In this document: one piece after another, positions 3,789 through 47,030 of the stretch | How the letters are laid out: each line of letters begins with the position of its first letter | Numbering within the stretch: position 1 is the stretch's first letter | DNA from: Chlorobium sp. | GTDB taxonomy: Bacteria > Bacteroidota > Chlorobiia > Chlorobiales > Chlorobiaceae | NCBI GenBank assembly: GCA_005843835.1 | Contig: SZXZ01000014.1 | Location: forward strand, 1-47,039 | Direction: 5' to 3' | Length of the DNA: 47,039 bases | Translations under genes and position numbers: made by a program | Notes under the pieces: generated by a model | Database searches by the model: none | Told to the model about the DNA's origin: nothing | Seen by the model: the letters and a program-made list of their open reading frames with translations, nothing else

Positions 3789-6500
3789 ATGACCGATCAG
3801 CCCGAAGCATTCAATCTGGAAAAAAATTATAATCATCAAGACGTAGAAGACCGTTGGAGAAGTGCTCACTGGGAAGCACTCGGAAGCTTTAATGCCGAAA
3901 GTACTGAGGTACTGGATAATGGAAAAGTTCCCTATACCGTTCTCATGCCACCTCCCAACGTTACCGGAAGTCTTACGCTCGGTCATGTTCTTAACCATAC
4001 TCTTCAGGATATTTTTATTCGTTATAACCGTATGACAGGGCATGTTGCCCTCTGGCTTCCAGGTACCGATCATGCGGGTATAGCGACACAAACGGTGGTC
4101 GAAAGAAAACTCAAACAGGAAGGTATCACCCGTCACGATCTTGGCCGAAAAGAATTTCTCGGACATGTATGGCAGTGGCGTGAAGAGTACGGTGGTCTTA
4201 TACTCAAACAGCTTCGCCGACTGGGCATTTCATGCGACTGGCGGCGAAACCTTTTCACTATGGATGAAAAGGCCTCCCAAGCGGTTATCAACGCATTTAT
4301 AACACTTTATCGTGACGGACTGATATACCGGGGTACCCGAATCATTAATTGGTGTCCGGTATCACAGACTGCGCTGTCCGATGAAGAAGTTATCATGAAA
4401 TCCCGCAGGGATAATCTTGTTTATGTGCAGTATGCCCTTGTAAACCATCCGGGCCGATACATTACTATTGCTACAGTTAGGCCGGAAACGATTCTTGGCG
4501 ATGTAGCCATCGCGGTTAATCCGAAAGATCCCCGTTATCTTGATTTGGTGGGTGAACTTGCAATTGTCCCGATAGCGGGCAGGCATATTCCGGTTATAGC
4601 CGATGACTACGTTGATATCGAGTTTGGTACTGGAGCATTGAAAATTACACCGGCCCATGATGTTAACGATTACGAAGTAGCCTGTCGCCACAATTTACAA
4701 GCCATATCTGTTGTCGGCAAAGACGGAAGAATGACCGACAAATTCGGGTATGGCGGCATGGATCGCTTTGATGCCCGTAAAAAAATCCTTAAAGATCTCG
4801 AAGAGCTTGGCAGTCTGGTTCGTGTCGAAGAGTATGAACACAATGTAGGTTATTCAGAACGAGCAGATGTAGTCGTTGAACCATACCTTTCTGAACAATG
4901 GTTTGTCAAAATGTCTCCTCTCGCTGAGCGGGCGCTTCAGGTTGTCAATGAAGGAGATATCAGGTTTCATCCACCGCACTGGATCAACACCTATCGTCAT
5001 TGGATGGGCAATATAAGGGACTGGTGTATCTCTCGCCAGCTCTGGTGGGGTCACCGGATTCCTGCCTGGTACGATACTGAGGGTAAAGTATGGGTTGCCG
5101 CCACCTATGAAGAGGCCTGTCATCTTGCCGGAACGGACAAGCTTATACAGGACGATGATGTTCTTGATACATGGTTTTCTTCCTGGCTCTGGCCGCTGAC
5201 AACACTTGGATGGACTGATAAGCATAGTGACAATGATGATTTGCGGTCATTTTATCCGACCGACACACTGGTAACAGGACCGGACATCATTTTTTTCTGG
5301 GTTGCCAGAATGATTATGGCAGGGCTATATTTTAAAGGAGAGGTGCCTTTCCGGAATGTTTATTTTACAAGCATAATCCGCGATATGAAAGGGCAAAAGC
5401 TTTCAAAGTCCCTCGGTAATTCTCCTGACCCCATCAAGGTCATGGATACCTACGGTACAGATGCTCTTCGTTTTACTATCATTTATATTGCCCCTCTCGG
5501 TCAGGATGTATTGTTTGGAGAAGAAAAGTGTGAACTTGGCCGCAATTTTGCCACGAAGATATGGAATGCTTCACGCCTCGTTTTCATGCAGCGCGAAAAG
5601 TATTTCAATGATCATGAAGAGTTTTCAGATGTTTATCTCAAATTTGATCCTCTCTCAGGAGATTTTGATGTAACAGGCGAGTGGCTTCTTGCTGGATTTC
5701 ATGGTATGCTCGATCGGTATCATACTGCTTTCAGCCAGTTCAGGGTTAATGATATTGTCAGATTGCTTTACGACTTTTTCAGGGGGGATTACTGCGACTG
5801 GTATCTGGAGGCTCTTAAAGTTCAGCTTGCAGGAAACGTTACCAGGCAGCAGGCTCAACAGTCTATCTGTCTTGCTGTTCATGTACTGGAAGGCTTCCTT
5901 AAAGCTCTGCATCCGGTAATGCCGTTTATAACTGATGAAATATGGCATCAAATTCTTCAGCGTTCATCAGTTGAAAGTATTGCACTTTCACCGATGCCGC
6001 TTTCCAATCGTCACTTTTCAGGACTGAATGTCCGCGGTTTTACCCTGATACAGAAGTTGGTTGCGGAGGTCAGAAGCCTTCGGTCTTTGTTTGGTGTTCC
6101 ACACAACAGTGAAGCGGAAGTTCTTCTCTGGCCATGCAGCGAAAGCGATCATCTAGTCTTTGAAAATAATCTTCCGCTTATTGCAGCTCTTGGACAATGC
6201 ATACCCAAGGTGATGACAGGTGGAGAGCGGCCTCGTCGTGCCGCAGGATCGGTAGTCGAGGGAAATGAACTATTTGTGCTGCTTGAGGGGTTGATTTCTT
6301 TTGATAAAGAGAAGGTGCGTCTACAGAAGGAAATTGGAAATATTTCATCCTATGTACAATCGCTCCGTAAAAAACTTTCAAATTCTGGATTTGTTGACAA
6401 TGCTCCTGTTGAAGTAATAGAAAAGGAGCGCGAAAAACTCAATGATGCTGAGGATAATCTTGCAAAACTCAACAGCAATTTTACAGTCCTGAATGAGTGA
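3789..6500 (+). CDS. valS: Valine--tRNA ligase
   Basis: Charges tRNA(Val) with valine; class I synthetase of 903 residues, the usual bacterial length. The catalytic N-terminal motif lies in [15 protein letters not shown]. The HIGH tetrapeptide therefore reads Thr63-Leu-Gly-His66 instead of the common His-Met/Leu-Gly-His, so the first histidine is absent. The second signature is KLSKS (537-541), normal for ValRS. The editing (CP1) domain is present, with [17 protein letters not shown]. The C-terminus ends in the basic coiled-coil tRNA-binding arm (last about 60 residues, beginning [15 protein letters not shown]). It is likely the only ValRS, so the altered motif is presumably functional. Confidence 0.96.
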
Positions 6501-36702: not shown

Positions 36703-37596
36703 ATGAAAGGAATTATTCTGGCAGGCGGATCTGGCACCAGACTCTATCCTGTTACGAGGGGGATATCCAAACAACTCCTGCCCGTATACGATAAACCTAT
36801 GATTTATTATCCCCTTACAACACTGATGCTCTCGGGTATAAGGGATATTCTGATTATTACCACACCCGAAGATCAACCAATGTTCATGAAGCTTCTTGGC
36901 GATGGAAGCGATTGGGGCATTTCTCTTTCTTACGTAGTTCAGCCTTCACCCGACGGACTTGCCCAGGCCTTTATTCTAGGGCAATCATTTATCGGCAGTG
37001 ACGATGTTACTCTTATTCTGGGGGACAATATTTTTTTTGGATATGCGTTCAGTCCTATGCTCGAACTGGCAGTTCAAACGGTACAACAAGAGCGCAAAGC
37101 CAATATATTCGGCTACTATGTCAGTGATCCTGAACGCTATGGAGTGGCAGAATTTGATGATGATGGCAATGTGCTTTCAATTGCCGAAAAGCCGAAACAG
37201 CCTAAATCAAATTATGCTGTTGTCGGCCTCTATTTTTATCCTAACAATGTTGTCGAAATTGCACAACAAATAAAGCCTTCTCCACGTGGAGAGCTTGAGA
37301 TTACGGCTGTTAATGAAGAGTATCTGAAGCGAGGGGAGTTGAAGTGCTCTATTCTGGGGCGTGGTTTTGCCTGGCTTGACACCGGAACCCATGAGTCATT
37401 TCAGGAAGCAGGAAACTTTATTCAAACCGTGGAAAAAAGGCAGGGCCTCAAAATATCCTGTCCCGAAGAAATTGCTTGGCGGAAAGGCTGGATTACTGAT
37501 AATGAACTTTTAAGTTTATCTGAGCCACTTATGAAAAGCCAGTACGGACAGTATCTTGTTCGACTTCTTGATCAGCGGGAAGTACCGGGAATCTAA
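36703..37596 (+). CDS. rfbA: Glucose-1-phosphate thymidylyltransferase
   Basis: First step of dTDP-L-rhamnose synthesis: glucose-1-phosphate + dTTP to dTDP-glucose. 297 residues, with the nucleotidyltransferase signature [36 protein letters not shown], the [10 protein letters not shown] loop and [18 protein letters not shown]. The C-terminal part includes [16 protein letters not shown] and [21 protein letters not shown]. It heads the run rfbA-rfbC-rfbD-rfbB and is preceded by a promoter-like signal. Confidence 0.96.
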
Positions 37597-37641
37597 GCTG
37601 AATGGTGTTTTTCTTTCTAATATCCATAGTGTCAATTTTTT

Positions 37642-38232
37642 ATGCGGGTAATTACTTCCTCCATACCTGATGTCCTGATTTTTGAGCCTGAGGTTTTGGG
37701 AGATGATCGGGGTTATTTTTTTGAGTCCTTTCGTCAGGATATATTTGAGCAGCATGTCGGCAGGGTAACGTTCGTGCAGGATAACGAGTCCAAATCTGGT
37801 TATGGAGTCCTGCGTGGCCTTCATTTTCAAAAGCCTCCCTTTACACAGTCAAAACTTGTTCGGGTGGTTTATGGTAGTGTTCTTGATGTTGCAGTTGATA
37901 TACGTTTAGGTTCACCATGGTACGGTCGACATGTGGCGTGTGTTCTTGATGCCGAGAGGAAAAATATGTTATGGGTACCTAAAGGATTTGCTCACGGCTT
38001 TCTTGTTCTCACACCAGAGGCAGTTTTTTCCTATAAGTGCGATAATTACTATATGCCTTCTCACGATACCGGATTGCTATGGAATGATAAAGCGCTTGCT
38101 ATAGAATGGCAGCTTCCTGAAAATTCTATCAAGGTTTCTGTGAAAGATGCAAACCAACCCCCGTTCAGCGATGTCGAGAGCTTCCGGTATGACGATTTCA
38201 GGCAGGAAAAACTTTACCCTCGAACGGCTTAA
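37642..38232 (+). CDS. rfbC: dTDP-4-dehydrorhamnose 3,5-epimerase
   Basis: Third step of dTDP-L-rhamnose synthesis, epimerising C3 and C5 of the keto-sugar. 196 residues of the cupin-fold RmlC family, with GYFFESFRQDIF, QDNESKSGYGVLRGLHFQ (the catalytic His in RGLHFQ), DVAVDIRLGSP and VPKGFAHGFLVL. It follows rfbA by 45 bases. Confidence 0.96.
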   Translation: MRVITSSIPDVLIFEPEVLGDDRGYFFESFRQDIFEQHVGRVTFVQDNESKSGYGVLRGLHFQKPPFTQSKLVRVVYGSVLDVAVDIRLGSPWYGRHVACVLDAERKNMLWVPKGFAHGFLVLTPEAVFSYKCDNYYMPSHDTGLLWNDKALAIEWQLPENSIKVSVKDANQPPFSDVESFRYDDFRQEKLYPRTA

Positions 38233-38294
38233 TATTATACCTATATATTGCGGTTACAGCGCTTTGATATGTGTCACATCATAGTTGTTTACTC

Positions 38295-39170
38295 ATGAAT
38301 ATTCTTGTTACCGGTAGCAGGGGTCAACTGGGATCTGAGCTGAAGGAGTTGTCGACAACTCAAAAAAAGCAGCAGTTTTTTTTCTATGATCTTCCAGAGC
38401 TTGATATAACCAGCCATGATCTTGTTGATCATCTCTGTCATGAACATTGCATCGATGTTATTGTTAACTGTGCAGCATATACAGCTGTTGATAAAGCGGA
38501 AACAGATACTGATGCTGCGTTCCGGGTTAACAGAGATGGTTCCTCCGTGCTTGCTGCATGCGCTAAAGCACGCAACATTCTTCTGGTGCATATTTCCACT
38601 GACTATGTGTTTAATGGAGATTCATGTGTTCCTTATAGAGAAATTGATAAGGTCAGTCCCCGTAGTGTTTACGGCATATCGAAATGGGAGGGAGAAGAGC
38701 AAATACGTCAGATTGCACCTTCCTATCTTATTATCAGGACGTCATGGCTTTATTCTGCCTACGGCAGTAACTTTGTAAAAACCATGCTGCGTCTCGGTGC
38801 AGAACGCGACACGTTGAATGTTGTCGTTGATCAGGTTGGCACTCCAACGTATGCGGCCGATTTAGCAGAGGCAATTATCATGATACTTGAACGCTGCAAC
38901 CCTGCTGCCTCCTATCAGAAAACCTACCATTATTCCAATGAAGGGGTCGCCTCGTGGTATGATTTTGCCTTAGCCATTATGGATATTTCTGAATTATCTT
39001 GCAGGGTGTTACCTGTTGAAAGCGCCCACTATCCCCAGATTGCGCCAAGACCCCACTATAGCGTTCTTAATAAATCGAGCTTCAAGGAGGATTGGGGGGT
39101 GGAAATTCCACACTGGAGGGCATCACTTGCATTGTTACTGGCAAAGATCAAAAGTACCGGCAAATTGTAA
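38295..39170 (+). CDS. rfbD: dTDP-4-dehydrorhamnose reductase
   Basis: Final reduction to dTDP-L-rhamnose with NADPH. The 291-residue extended SDR starts MNILVTGSRGQLGSEL (Rossmann motif) and has the catalytic YGISKWEGE (Tyr-x3-Lys) and HISTDYVF. The upstream in-frame GTG at 38271 would add eight residues without a signal, so ATG 38295 is used. Confidence 0.95.
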   Translation: MNILVTGSRGQLGSELKELSTTQKKQQFFFYDLPELDITSHDLVDHLCHEHCIDVIVNCAAYTAVDKAETDTDAAFRVNRDGSSVLAACAKARNILLVHISTDYVFNGDSCVPYREIDKVSPRSVYGISKWEGEEQIRQIAPSYLIIRTSWLYSAYGSNFVKTMLRLGAERDTLNVVVDQVGTPTYAADLAEAIIMILERCNPAASYQKTYHYSNEGVASWYDFALAIMDISELSCRVLPVESAHYPQIAPRPHYSVLNKSSFKEDWGVEIPHWRASLALLLAKIKSTGKL

Positions 39171-39232
39171 TATTTCTCCGGATTTGATTGAAAAACAGAG
39201 AGACGACAAACATTAAACAATCAATACTGTCA

Positions 39233-40282
39233 ATGCATATTCTGATCACCGGAGGAGCCGGTTTTATAGGGTCTCATGTCGTTAGACATTTTTTAAAGCA
39301 CTATCCATCCTACACCATCACAAATCTCGACAAACTAACGTATGCGGGTAACCTGGCTAATCTCAAGGATGTTGACAGTGAGCTGAATTACAGATTTATA
39401 AAAGGTGATATAACCGATGGGAATTTTCTTCAGAACCTGTTTCAAGAGAACAGTTTTGATGGAGTAATTCACTTGGCTGCCGAGTCACACGTTGACAGAT
39501 CAATTACAAATCCTACCGAGTTCGTTGTAACCAATGTTCTCGGCACGGTTAATCTTCTTAATGCTGCGAGGGCCTGCTGGCAGTCAAATTACGAAGGAAA
39601 AAGGTTTTATCACATTTCAACCGATGAAGTATATGGATCGCTTGGCCGGGAAGGAATGTTTACTGAACAAACACCTTACGATCCCCACAGCCCATATTCA
39701 GCTTCAAAGGCCTCCTCAGATCATTTCGTCAGGGCTTACCACGACACCTTTACACTCCCGGTAGTAATCAGTAACTGCTCTAACAATTACGGCTCTTTCC
39801 AGTTTCCTGAAAAGCTTATTCCTCTTTTTATAAATAATATTGTACAAAACAAGCCCCTGCCGGTATATGGAAAAGGAGAGAACATTCGCGACTGGCTTTG
39901 GGTTGTCGATCACGCCCAAGCCATTGATGTAATTTTTCATAAAGGTCAAAATGGTTCGACCTATAATATTGGTGGTCATAATGAATGGAGTAATATTAAT
40001 CTGATCCTTCTGCTTTGTCGTATTATGGATGCAAAACTAGGACGCGGTGCAGGCGAGTCAGAAAAACTGATTACCTATGTTACTGACCGAGCTGGTCACG
40101 ATCTTCGTTATGCAATTGATTCGTCGAAACTGAAGAGGGAGCTTGGCTGGGAGCCTTCAATTACGTTTGAAAAAGGGCTTGAACTGACTGTTGACTGGTA
40201 TCTGGCAAACAGGGAGTGGCTTGATAATGTCACCTCCGGCGGATATCAGCATTATTATGAAAAGATGTATTGCGGACGGTAG
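39233..40282 (+). CDS. rfbB: dTDP-glucose 4,6-dehydratase
   Basis: Second step of dTDP-L-rhamnose synthesis: dTDP-glucose to the 4-keto-6-deoxy sugar with bound NAD. 349 residues, starting MHILITGGAGFIGSHVVRHF, with HLAAESHVDRSI, STDEVYGSLG, PYSASKASSDHFVRAYHDT (Tyr-x3-Lys) and GENIRDWLWVVDHAQAID. ATG 39233 is chosen as the family start; no clear ribosome binding site is visible. It ends 47 bases before the galE start. Confidence 0.96.
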   Translation: MHILITGGAGFIGSHVVRHFLKHYPSYTITNLDKLTYAGNLANLKDVDSELNYRFIKGDITDGNFLQNLFQENSFDGVIHLAAESHVDRSITNPTEFVVTNVLGTVNLLNAARACWQSNYEGKRFYHISTDEVYGSLGREGMFTEQTPYDPHSPYSASKASSDHFVRAYHDTFTLPVVISNCSNNYGSFQFPEKLIPLFINNIVQNKPLPVYGKGENIRDWLWVVDHAQAIDVIFHKGQNGSTYNIGGHNEWSNINLILLLCRIMDAKLGRGAGESEKLITYVTDRAGHDLRYAIDSSKLKRELGWEPSITFEKGLELTVDWYLANREWLDNVTSGGYQHYYEKMYCGR

Positions 40283-40329
40283 AGTTACTCATCTATTGTG
40301 ATTTAAAAGATTTAAGAAAGGACTTTTTT

Positions 40330-41307
40330 ATGAGAATTCTGGTTATCGGAGGTGCTGGTTATATCGGAAGCCATGTAGCTAGAGCTTTTTTAGATCGTGG
40401 ATATGATGTTACCGTATTTGACAACCTGCAGACTGGCTTAAGGGAGAATCTCTTTATTGAAGCTGAGTTTGTGCATGGCGACATCATGCGTCCTGAACAG
40501 CTGAGAGAGGCAATGGCAGGTGGCTTTGATGGATGCATTCATCTCGCAGCTCTCAAAGCCGCTGGACTGTCGATGCTGAACCCTGAAATCTATGCTGAGG
40601 CAAACATTGCAGGAACCATTAACATCCTTAATCAGGCATCTGCAGCAGCAATATCAAGGGTTATCTTTTCTTCTTCAGCTGCAGTTTACGGTACCCCTCA
40701 ATACCTTCCGATAGATGAAGAACACCCGAAAGAACCGGAAAACTTTTATGGGTTTACCAAGCTGGAAATAGAGCGCTTGCTGGGCTGGTATGACCAGCTG
40801 AAAGAAATGAGGTACGCGGCCATTCGCTATTTCAACGCAGCTGGCTATGATGTCAGCGGTCGGATCAAGGGGCTGGAGTTGCATCCGGAAAACTTACTGC
40901 CGATTGTAATGGAAACAGCAGCAGGCATGAGGCCTAAACTCTCAATATTTGGTGATGATTATCCTACAAAGGATGGAAGCTGTATACGCGACTATGTTCA
41001 TGTAAGCGATCTTGCAGAAGCGCATGTCAGTGCTTTTGAATACATTGTAGAGCACGATAAAAGCATTACAGTCAATCTTGGAAGCCAGACTGGAGTAAGT
41101 GTGTTTGAAATGGTCGAACGGGCTCGGGTACTTACAGGCAGATCGGTTTCAGCTGATGTTACAGGCAGGCGCCGAGGAGATCCTTCTGAACTTGTGGCTT
41201 CATCATCGAAAGCGCGTGAGCTTCTTGGATGGTCTCCAAAGTACAGCGATATTGATACACTTATCACTTCAACGTGGAAGATGTACGAGAAATTTACCAA
41301 TCATTAA
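40330..41307 (+). CDS. galE: UDP-glucose 4-epimerase (GalE-type NAD-dependent epimerase)
   Basis: Interconverts UDP-glucose and UDP-galactose (or the N-acetyl forms) using tightly bound NAD. 325 residues, starting MRILVIGGAGYIGSHVARAF, with HLAALKAAGLSM, the catalytic FSSSAAVYG and FYGFTKLEIE (Tyr-x3-Lys) and RYFNAAGYD. The C-terminus has GSQTGVSVFEMVERARVL and RRRGDPSELVASSSKARELLGW. AAAGGA is upstream of ATG 40330. It lies between the rhamnose genes and manC, supporting a surface-polysaccharide role. The exact sugar is not certain. Confidence 0.92.
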   Translation: MRILVIGGAGYIGSHVARAFLDRGYDVTVFDNLQTGLRENLFIEAEFVHGDIMRPEQLREAMAGGFDGCIHLAALKAAGLSMLNPEIYAEANIAGTINILNQASAAAISRVIFSSSAAVYGTPQYLPIDEEHPKEPENFYGFTKLEIERLLGWYDQLKEMRYAAIRYFNAAGYDVSGRIKGLELHPENLLPIVMETAAGMRPKLSIFGDDYPTKDGSCIRDYVHVSDLAEAHVSAFEYIVEHDKSITVNLGSQTGVSVFEMVERARVLTGRSVSADVTGRRRGDPSELVASSSKARELLGWSPKYSDIDTLITSTWKMYEKFTNH

Positions 41308-41323
41308 AAAACCTTTTTCGTTC

Positions 41324-42739
41324 ATGATAATTCCTGTCATTCTCAGCGGTGGATCAGGGACCAGATTATGGCCTCTTTCCCGTGCGTTGTATCCAAAGCA
41401 GCTCCTTTCCCTTATTGGCGAAAAAACCATGCTGCAGGATACGGTCCTTCGTCTGATATCAACCGATGACACTGGGCCTGTCTATTGTGTCTGCAATGAG
41501 AGTCACCGCTTTCTGGTTGCTGAACAGCTTCACGAAATAGACACAGATATCGGAGAGATTATTCTTGAACCATCAGGTCGCAATACTGCTCCGGCAGCAG
41601 CTATTGCAGCAATGCTCATAGCCGAAAAGCATCCGGGTGCAACCATGCTCATACTGCCCGCCGATCATGTTATTCTTGATCCAGTGGCGTTTGGTGCCGC
41701 AGTTGCAGCCGGCAAGTCTGCTGCCGAACAGGGGAAACTGGTAACTTTTGGAATTGTGCCTGCCTCTCCTGAAACAGGCTACGGCTATATAAGGGCTTCT
41801 GTAAATAGTGAAGGGAACAAGAAGGTATATCCGGTTCTTGAATTTGTAGAAAAGCCCGATAAAATAACTGCGGAAATCTATCTGGCCTCGGGTGACTATT
41901 TCTGGAATAGCGGCATATTTCTCTTTACAGCTGAAACCTATCTTAGAGAACTGGAAGCAAATGCTCCTGCGATCGTTATTGCATGCAGGAAGGCATTGCA
42001 GAATGCGCATAAAGATCTTGATTTTTTGAGGTTGGATATACAGGAATTCAGTTCCTCTCCTTCTGACTCCATTGACTATGCTGTCATGGAAAAAACCACA
42101 AAAGCTGCGCTTGTACCCCTCAATGCCGGATGGAATGATGTCGGGGCATGGTCTGCACTGTGGGATGTTCATGCTCGTGATGATTCTGGCAATGTGAAAA
42201 AGGGCGATGTGATGGTGCAGGATGTCAGGAATTGTTATATCCACGCAACGAGCCGCCTTGTTACTGCTGTCGGGCTTGACAGTCTTATTGTTGTTGAAAC
42301 GGCAGATGCTGTGCTGGTTGCCACAAGAGAGTCTGTGCAGGACGTCAAAATGCTTGTAGAAGAGCTGAAAAGGAAAGAAAGGGATGAAGCCGAGATACAT
42401 CGTCGGGTCTATAGACCATGGGGTTCGTATGAAACTGTTGATTTTTCAGATCGATTTAAAGTCAAGCGCATTACCGTAAAACCGGGAGCGGCGTTATCGT
42501 TACAAAAGCACCATCATCGGGCTGAACACTGGATAGTTGTAAAGGGGACAGCTCAGGTTACCGTAGATGACAGGGAAATTACCCTGTATGAAGATCAGTC
42601 TACCTATATTCCTGTCGGCTCTCTGCATCGTCTTGAAAATAGAGGACTAAGTCCGCTTGAACTGATAGAGGTTCAGTCGGGTAGTTATCTTGGAGAGGAC
42701 GATATTGTTCGATACGACGATCGATATGGACGAAAGTAA
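41324..42739 (+). CDS. manC: Mannose-1-phosphate guanylyltransferase / mannose-6-phosphate isomerase
   Basis: Makes GDP-mannose from mannose-1-phosphate and GTP; the fused C-terminal cupin isomerises fructose-6-phosphate to mannose-6-phosphate. 471 residues, with MIIPVILSGGSGTRLWPLSRALYPKQ, EPSGRNTAPAAAIAA, GYGYIRASV and EKPDKITAEIYL in the GMP domain (about 1-340), then the type II isomerase cupin RPWGSYETVDFSDRFKVKRI, PGAALSLQKHHHRAEHWIVV and YIPVGSLHRLENRG. It starts 16 bases after the galE stop. The upstream part of the open frame (from 41099) overlaps galE and is not used. Confidence 0.95.
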   Translation: MIIPVILSGGSGTRLWPLSRALYPKQLLSLIGEKTMLQDTVLRLISTDDTGPVYCVCNESHRFLVAEQLHEIDTDIGEIILEPSGRNTAPAAAIAAMLIAEKHPGATMLILPADHVILDPVAFGAAVAAGKSAAEQGKLVTFGIVPASPETGYGYIRASVNSEGNKKVYPVLEFVEKPDKITAEIYLASGDYFWNSGIFLFTAETYLRELEANAPAIVIACRKALQNAHKDLDFLRLDIQEFSSSPSDSIDYAVMEKTTKAALVPLNAGWNDVGAWSALWDVHARDDSGNVKKGDVMVQDVRNCYIHATSRLVTAVGLDSLIVVETADAVLVATRESVQDVKMLVEELKRKERDEAEIHRRVYRPWGSYETVDFSDRFKVKRITVKPGAALSLQKHHHRAEHWIVVKGTAQVTVDDREITLYEDQSTYIPVGSLHRLENRGLSPLELIEVQSGSYLGEDDIVRYDDRYGRK

Positions 42740-43276: not shown

Positions 43277-46200
43277 ATGGCCGATAAATTTGTTGAGTAT
43301 CCATCAAATACACCTTACAGTGTTGTAGAACGAGAAGTCCTCGCATACTGGAATGAACACGGGATTTTTAATAAAAGTCTGGAAAACAAACCTGCTGACA
43401 GGGTATACTCTTTTTATGAAGGGCCTCCAACAGTCAACGGCAAACCCGGTGTTCACCATGTATTCAGCCGTACCATAAAAGATGTTGTCTGTCGTTATAA
43501 AACCATGCAGGGTTATCGGGTTCCTCGCAAAGCAGGATGGGATACTCATGGGTTACCTGTAGAGATTTCGGTGGAAAAAAAACTTGGTCTCAAAAATAAA
43601 GCCCAGGTTGTGGAGTACGGTGATGGAGAGTTCAATGCCGAAGCCAGGGCTCTAGTTTACCACCATATTGACGATAATCGTGAAGGATGGGGTAAGCTGA
43701 CAGAACGGATGGGATATTGGGTAGATATGGATCACCCCTACATTACTTGTACCAATGATTATATAGAGTCGGTTTGGTGGGCACTTAAGACAATTTTCGA
43801 CAAGGGACTGATTTATAAGGATTACAAAATTGTACCTCAAGATCCAAAATCAGAGACAGTGCTGAGTTCACATGAGCTCGCGTTAGGGTACAAAGAGGTC
43901 ACCGATCCAAGCATTTATGTAAAATTCCGTGTAAAAGGTTCAGAAGAGTCTCTGCTTGTATGGACGACCACGCCGTGGACTTTGATTTCAAACGTTGCTC
44001 TTTGTATAGGTGCGGATATTGACTATGTGAAGGTTTCTCATATTGAGAGTGGTGAAATATTGATTTTAGCCAAGTCACGCCTACAGGTTCTTCTTGAGAA
44101 AAATGATACTGGAGAATCTCTCTGGAAAGTTATTGCCGAACTGAAAGGACGAGATTTAGAAGGCATTGACTACGAGCCGCTTTTCAGCTATCTCCATCCT
44201 GAAAAAAAATGCTGGTACGTCACTTCGGGCTCTTTTGTTTCTACAGAAGACGGGACTGGTATTGTCCATATTGCACCTGCATTTGGTGCTGAAGACTACG
44301 AGATTGCCAAGAAATACGATTTGCCCATGCTCCAGCCGGTTGCTCGAAACGGATGTTTTACCGCTGAAGTAAACGACTATGAAGGCATGTTTTTCAAGGA
44401 CACCGATCCGTTGATTATCCGTCAACTTCGGGACGCCGGCAAATTGTACCGTAAGGAGACCATTACCCATACCTATCCTTTTTCATGGCGTTATGATGTG
44501 CCGGTGATCTATTATGCAAGAGAGTCCTGGTATATCAGAACCACAGCTATAGCCGATCGTATGGTGGAGCTCAATAAAACCATTAACTGGTGTCCTCCCG
44601 AAATAGGTACCGGACGTTTTGGTAACTGGCTCGAGGACAATAAGGACTGGGCACTTTCACGAGAAAGGTTCTGGGGTTCTCCGCTTCCTCTCTGGGTTTC
44701 AGAAAATTTTGCTATTGGCGATGATGCGGCATCAGGAAAAGTGTTTGCGATTGGCTCCGTAGCTGAGTTGCGCGAAGGATTTATTGATATTGATGGGGAA
44801 CAGCTTCTTTTGGGGGATGCCCTAGACAGGGAACTCGTTGTACTGGATCTGCACAAGCCCTTTGTTGATAAAATATACTTTATCAGGGATAAAATTCGCT
44901 TCAATCGCACACCCGAACTGGTTGATGTATGGTTCGACAGCGGATCAATGCCCTTTGCCCAATTGCATTATCCGTTTGAAAATTCTGAGCTTTTCGATTC
45001 GACCTTTCCTGCTGACTTCATAGCAGAGGGGGTTGATCAGACTAGAGGTTGGTTCTATACCATGCATGCCATTGCAACACTCATTTTTGATAAACCGGCA
45101 TACAAAAACCTGATTGTAAACGGTCATATCCTGGATAAAAATGGTCACAAAATGTCGAAGTCGAAAGGCAATGTTGTTGATCCTTTTGAGACTATGGACC
45201 GTTATGGCGCTGATGCACTCCGCTGGTATTTGATGGTAACCAGTCCGCCATGGAGGCCGAAGTCATTCAATGCTGATGAGATAGAAGAAGAACAGCGAAA
45301 GTTTTTTCGGGCCTTCATCAATAGCTATAATTTCTTTGTGCTCTACGCTAATGTTGATGGCTTTACTTTTGCTGAGCCGAAAATTCCTGAGCAGGACCGA
45401 TCCGAGCTAGATCGCTGGGTACTCTCCAGTTTGAATACGCTGGTAGGCAGTGTTTATGTACGTATGGAGCAGTATGATCTTACAGGCGCTGTAAGGCTGA
45501 TCAACGACTTCACCGTTGATGATCTGTCAAACTGGTATATTCGCCGGTCACGAAAACGGTTCTGGAAAAGCGATATGGGCCCTGACAAGATCGCAGCCTA
45601 TCAGACACTGTATAGCTGTCTTGCGACACTTGCAAAACTTCTGGCTCCGTTTACGCCATTTTTGGCGGATCGTATATATCTGAACCTTAATGGCATCAGT
45701 GGACTTGAGCCCTTTGAATCAGTTCATCTTGCAGATTTTCCTCTGCTTGAAATGTCAGTTATAGACCGCCCATTGGAACAACGCATGAAAAAAGCGCAAA
45801 TTATTACTTCCCTGGTTCGTACCATGCGCGAGAAGGCTTCGATCAAGGTCCGTCAACCACTCAAACGGATTCTGCTTGCCGTTAGTGACTCTTCCGCAAG
45901 AGAAGAGTATGCAATGGTTTCCGACATCATTATGGAAGAGATCAACGTACAGAAGATTGAGTATATCGAGGACGAAGGCTCGGTAATCAGCAAAAAAGCA
46001 AAAGCAAATTTTAAAACTCTCGGTCCCCGTTTCGGTAAAGATATGAAAGCACTTGCTGAAGCTATAAGAGTGATGAGTCATAAACAGATTGCGCATCTTG
46101 AAAAAGAAGGTCACCTTTCTCTCAATCTTGACGGCAAAGAGTTTGACATTGTACGCGATGATGTTGAAATCATGCATGAAGATATTGAGGGCTGGCTTGT

Positions 46201-46534
46201 GGCATCCGATGAAGCCCATGGCATCATGGTAGCACTTGATACAGAGATGACTGAAGAGCTGGAAATGCTTGGTCTCTCCCGTGAACTGGTAAGTCGTATC
46301 CAGTCGCTCCGTAAAGAAAGCGGGTTCGACATTACTGATAGAATTACTTTAAGTATCCATGGTTCGGTAAAACTTCTGGATGCTGTGATGAAAAATGATG
46401 CGTATATTAAAGCAGAAACACTCACCACATCTCTCATTACCACACAATCCGATCCTTCATCAATAATCAAGGGAAAGGAAGAGTTGGTTAATGGTGAAAT
46501 TTGCTGGTTATCGCTTGAAAAATATGCAAGTTAA
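43277..46534 (+). CDS. ileS: Isoleucine--tRNA ligase, IleRS2 type
   Basis: Charges tRNA(Ile). The 1085-residue class I enzyme is longer than the E. coli type and resembles the IleRS2 group. The HIGH motif is changed: [19 protein letters not shown] gives Gly58-Val59-His60-His61 in place of His-x-Gly-His, i.e. the first and third positions are swapped. KMSKS is normal (625-629). The editing domain is present ([34 protein letters not shown]), and the C-terminus holds the anticodon-binding and IleRS2 extra domain. Reports as I recall link GXHH to very strong mupirocin resistance. No other IleRS gene lies in the window. Confidence 0.96.
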
Positions 46535-46595: not shown

Positions 46596-47030
46596 ATGGC
46601 CAAAAAGAATAGTAGTGCTTCCAAGAAGGAAAATGAGGTTATCGAGGAACCGGTCCTTACCAAGACATATTTAACCGACGAAGAGCTCGAACATTTCAAG
46701 CAGTTACTGCTTAAACGACGGGAAGAAGTGCTTCGTGATCTGGATATTCTACGCTCATCAATTTCAGATGAAAATGTGGAAGATTCCATTAATTCAAACT
46801 ACTCCATGCATATGGCCGATCACGGCACTGATACCATGGATCGCGAACAGCGTTTCATGTTCATAGCCCGTGATGAAAAATATATCGGTTATATCGATCA
46901 GGCCCTTGACAGAATTCGAAATAAAGTGTATGGCATCTGCATCAAATCCGGCAAGCCTATTCCTAAAAAGAGGCTGGAGGCCGTACCGCATACTTCAGTG
47001 AGAATTGAGTTTAAGCAGAATAAAAAGTAG
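46596..47030 (+). CDS. DksA/TraR-family protein with degenerate zinc finger
   Basis: 144 residues of the DksA/TraR type: the coiled-coil (LTDEELEHFKQLLLKRREEVLRDLD) that enters RNA polymerase's secondary channel, the middle AMD-TMDREQ-type segment (HGTDTMDREQ) and the C-terminal zinc-finger position YGICIKSGKPIPKKRLEAVPHTSVRIEFK. Only Cys115 of the four usual cysteines remains; Ser118, Arg136 and Phe139 occupy the others (by spacing). Zinc-free versions are seen in Bacteroidetes-type proteins, so this is probably functional without metal. Together with the Rel enzyme at 14958 it could serve the stringent response. The lspA neighbour often seen after it lies beyond the window. Confidence 0.87.
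   Translation: MAKKNSSASKKENEVIEEPVLTKTYLTDEELEHFKQLLLKRREEVLRDLDILRSSISDENVEDSINSNYSMHMADHGTDTMDREQRFMFIARDEKYIGYIDQALDRIRNKVYGICIKSGKPIPKKRLEAVPHTSVRIEFKQNKK

Follow-up and report, generated by a model that had tools for sequence, protein, structure and literature searches.

Isoleucyl-tRNA synthetase (IleRS), like other class I synthetases, is normally recognised by a catalytic signature of the form HxGH. The IleRS encoded in a stretch of Chlorobium sp. DNA (contig SZXZ01000014.1; 47,039 nucleotides, the whole of which is called the window here) has the first and third positions of this signature exchanged. Is such a protein still the working enzyme of its host, and does the exchange bring resistance to the antibiotic mupirocin? 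The gene very probably encodes the housekeeping IleRS of Chlorobium, a type 2 enzyme (IleRS2) that has been inherited vertically, with a GXHH signature that would make the enzyme nearly insensitive to mupirocin and that represents the ancestral state of the phylum.

The ileS gene and its surroundings

The ileS open reading frame is intact, spans positions 43277-46534 on the forward strand, and has 1085 codons for 1085 amino acids. The product matches the NCBIfam ileS model TIGR00392 at 937.7 bits, against a curated cut-off of 621.4, which identifies it as an isoleucyl-tRNA synthetase. Pfam finds the catalytic (tRNA-synt_1), anticodon-binding (Anticodon_1), and DUF5915 domains. Its top matches in the PDB, over the full length, are the IleRS2 structures of Priestia megaterium (PmIleRS2; 8c8w, 8c8u, 8c8v, and 8c9d), and structures of the type 1 enzyme (IleRS1) score far lower. 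The best full-length match by sequence is 8c8w, an engineered GVHH PmIleRS2. In a maximum-likelihood tree that included ValRS, the IleRS2 branch (100/99) and the IleRS1 controls (100/100) form separate groups, and the window enzyme lies inside IleRS2, beside its Chlorobium relatives. The translation also contains LHYPFEN and with it the HYPFE motif, which has been reported for the eukaryote-like IleRS group (PMC4861432). Family score, PDB ranking, tree, and HYPFE motif all uphold the IleRS2 membership proposed in the first-pass annotation; judged from its sequence, the enzyme is an IleRS2 inherited vertically within Chlorobium.

The swapped signature, GVHH, was found exactly where that annotation had placed it, at residues 58-61 (43448-43459, forward strand), and it occupies the exact place of the class I HxGH. 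When the protein was aligned with both IleRS types, as had been suggested, GVHH fell in the HxGH column, column for column with the HIGH, HMGH, or HAGH of the E. coli, Listeria, Acetobacter, Paenibacillus, and MupA enzymes. With Gly at the first signature position, His at the third and fourth, and no HxGH elsewhere, the protein belongs among the G/AXHH IleRS2. A codon-degenerate version of the motif has a single match in the window, where 100 shuffles predict 0.00, and the second class I signature, KMSKS, is intact at residues 625-629 (45149-45163, forward strand). A sequencing or assembly error as the source of GVHH is ruled out by the same swap in 78 relatives from other genomes.

The first-pass annotation had held that another HxGH in the protein, or a second and canonical IleRS in the genome, would speak against its reading. 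Neither turned up: a scan of the whole protein found no further HxGH or [GA]xHH, and family and protein searches detected no second IleRS in the source assembly (88.7% complete, 140 contigs). A single ileS scores above the cut-off there; the remaining matches are the ValRS of this contig, LeuRS, and some weaker sequences that are more distantly related. The case for a single ileS is strong but, at this completeness, not final; in near-complete congeners, a pattern search found no second IleRS either.

Directly downstream of ileS is a gene predicted to encode a DksA/TraR-like zinc-finger protein (46596-47030, forward strand), recognised by NCBIfam matches under the curated cut-off. The same gene order is found in C. 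ferrooxidans, where the ORF has the same size, and in a Bacteroides finegoldii record. Upstream of ileS, at 36703-42739, is a nucleotide-sugar cluster with rmlA, rmlD, rmlB, galE, and a gene for mannose-1-phosphate guanylyltransferase/mannose-6-phosphate isomerase.

Signatures across the phylum

Eighty relatives of the gene were fetched, and the motif region could be read in 78. Every one of these has GXHH, including all 43 loci from the class Chlorobia. Within the Chlorobiaceae, the enzyme is conserved at 73-91%, and the gene is present in close congeners as well. A wider sample of 395 genomes from the phylum gave the same picture, with the GXHH pattern matched in 392 of them and in 371 of the 371 of good quality; the three genomes lacking a match are all incomplete. 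For the canonical IleRS1 motif, a pattern validated on four IleRS1 controls, each of which it recognises, had no match in any of the 395. The pattern for canonical IleRS2 demands a Pro before the motif, and would miss IleRS1; it revealed no canonical IleRS2 in the 395 genomes. Its single match, in genome G096, was ruled out as an IleRS, as it translates as GlnRS-like PEPNGYPHIGHA.

Two genomes (G115 and G184) have two GXHH matches each. In G115, the second ileS (L120, on G115:C10) is incomplete and sits on a contig of 5.6 kb, and a full copy is present elsewhere in that genome; the incomplete copy is a fragment or contamination.

Since nearly every sampled genome of the phylum has GXHH, the swap is ordinary in a green sulfur bacterium, and the suggestion in the first-pass annotation that its occurrence there was worth recording did not survive the wider sampling. 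It is better described as an ancestral and essentially fixed trait of the phylum, which has very probably come down from a common ancestor and not through local acquisition.

Another synthetase in the window also departs from the usual signatures. In the ValRS gene (3789-6500, forward strand), TLGH replaces HxGH, so that the first signature His is a Thr, and KLSKS replaces KMSKS. A pattern search of 198 genomes from the phylum found TxGH ValRS in 57, HxGH ValRS in 116, neither in 25, and both in none. Two of the 25 non-matches are HxGH enzymes with one changed neighbouring codon, and those that were read individually are NITG variants of either type. TxGH ValRS is present in every sampled Chlorobiales genome, counting two NITG ones, and also in some Bacteroidota. 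The LeuRS of the source genome has a canonical HVGH. A Thr in ValRS is probably tolerated, given that the PROSITE class I pattern permits either His or Thr at the first signature position and that bacterial TrpRS carries TIGN. No paper on TxGH ValRS was found in the literature searched.

A separate observation concerns a record labelled as “Bacteriophage sp.” and UNVERIFIED (L108; MT835536.1, 28935-33045). It encodes a full-length IleRS2 with a canonical HIGH that is 42% identical to the window protein, and the record is possibly a mislabelled bacterial contig.

Mupirocin response and alternative readings

The exchange of the first and third signature residues in IleRS2 was described by Brkic et al. 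2023 (PMC10485003), and the link to mupirocin hyper-resistance with retained catalysis, which the first-pass annotation had given, is accurate. In that study, G/AXHH in IleRS2 went with a mupirocin Ki in the mM range while catalysis was kept, and the tree held 86 G/AXHH and 77 HXGH IleRS2 sequences, with the swap in no IleRS1. For example, the Ki for DrIleRS2 (ALHH) was 6.6 mM vs 8.1 uM for its HVGH mutant, and GVHH in TtIleRS2 and PmIleRS2 raised the Ki about 200-fold or more. The change has a price in PmIleRS2, where engineered GVHH led to losses of up to 10-fold in catalytic parameters, and an IleRS1 given GXHH was inactive (PMC10485003). The tip of the motif helix is displaced in IleRS2, so the third His can replace the first, and modelling suggests that the third-position His clashes with mupirocin (PMC10485003).

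By extension from these enzymes, the Chlorobium IleRS would be expected to keep its catalysis and to be hyper-resistant. The His at the third position may assume the transition-state role of the absent first His, an arrangement that IleRS2 would tolerate through the displacement of its helix tip relative to IleRS1. Because this bulky His would clash with the drug, the enzyme should be almost insensitive to mupirocin. Hyper-resistance at the level of the target would then be the expected state of the whole lineage, as GXHH is near-universal in the phylum and no canonical motif was matched. Of course, the resistance of an organism is also set by uptake and efflux. The literature searched contained no activity or mupirocin measurement for any Chlorobiota IleRS, and nothing directly relevant on motif variants in the Chlorobiota or Bacteroidota.

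Two descriptive features can be read from the alignments of the Chlorobia enzymes. The first is a 4-residue insertion in the region of helix alpha2, at about residues 131-134 (IDDN, the register being ambiguous; 43667-43678, forward strand). It was found in the Chlorobia-class loci read, directly after the residues that match PmIleRS2 123-126, a segment of helix alpha2 that is kinked in the mupirocin-bound structure (PMC10485003). The insertion is mostly absent from the other relatives examined, with a 3-residue version in a few deep branches. It sets the Chlorobia-class enzymes apart from the GXHH enzymes that have been tested and would be a point against transferring the published results directly. 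The second feature is His617 (45125-45127, forward strand), which sequence alignment places at the adenine-side position of PmIleRS1 Phe586 and PmIleRS2 His582, whose role is known from the same study (PMC10485003). This residue is His in most Chlorobia and Leu in five; among the examined relatives outside the class, almost all with GXHH have Leu here, and the three HXGH IleRS2 all have His.

The alternative that survives best leaves the biochemistry untouched and asks only why the swap became fixed, and it is compatible with the best explanation. The swap could have been kept for reasons other than mupirocin, such as lineage inertia, other inhibitors, or adenylate chemistry, with resistance as a by-product. 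The fixation of GXHH across the phylum, including lineages whose ecology makes a meeting with mupirocin producers seem improbable, fits this idea. However, exchange of the motif in either direction shifts the Ki hundreds-fold in tested enzymes, and the authors of that work favour antibiotic selection (PMC10485003). We regard a cause other than mupirocin as a serious contender that falls somewhat short of an even chance. A more far-reaching proposal joins the two synthetases: class Ia enzymes would have left HIGH more than once (GXHH in IleRS phylum-wide, TxGH in ValRS in sampled Chlorobiales), and the Chlorobia IleRS would be tuned by the alpha2 insertion and His617, giving a drug response or kinetics unlike those of the tested GXHH enzymes. 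This proposal is unlikely.

Loss of synthetase activity, with the protein serving another role, is hardly credible: several class I enzymes suffer severely when the first His of HIGH is lost, but natural A/GXHH enzymes are active (PMC10485003), and the window protein is the only IleRS detected in its genome, retains KMSKS and all domains, and is conserved across the Chlorobiaceae. An equally negligible chance falls to a recently acquired MupA-like resistance gene in place of the housekeeping enzyme, which score, motif, and tree rule out: the NCBIfam MupA and MupB models match (825.8 and 819 bits) because both are IleRS2, but far under their cut-off of 1900; MupA itself has a canonical signature; and this sole detected IleRS groups with its Chlorobium relatives and is shared by close congeners.

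The reading as a housekeeping, vertically inherited IleRS2 would extend the published link between motif and phenotype to a new lineage, one in which the motif is fixed phylum-wide. Target-level resistance to mupirocin in this phylum would then be a taxonomic property, not an acquired trait, and the current distribution of GXHH need not mirror present-day exposure to the drug.

Relation to known enzymes

As a housekeeping IleRS2 with a swapped signature, the Chlorobium enzyme resembles SgIleRS2 of Streptomyces griseus and DrIleRS2 of Deinococcus radiodurans, in which positions 1 and 3 are likewise exchanged. It is unlike other GXHH IleRS2 in the alpha2 insertion of its class and in having an adenine-side His where most of those examined have Leu. 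The PmIleRS2 of structure 8c8w shares with it both the GVHH letters and the His at the His582 position; however, that protein is an engineered mutant, whereas the GVHH of Chlorobium is natural. The MupA of staphylococcal plasmids is also an IleRS2 and is associated with mupirocin resistance, but it is acquired, carries HAGH, and lies on another IleRS2 branch of the tree.
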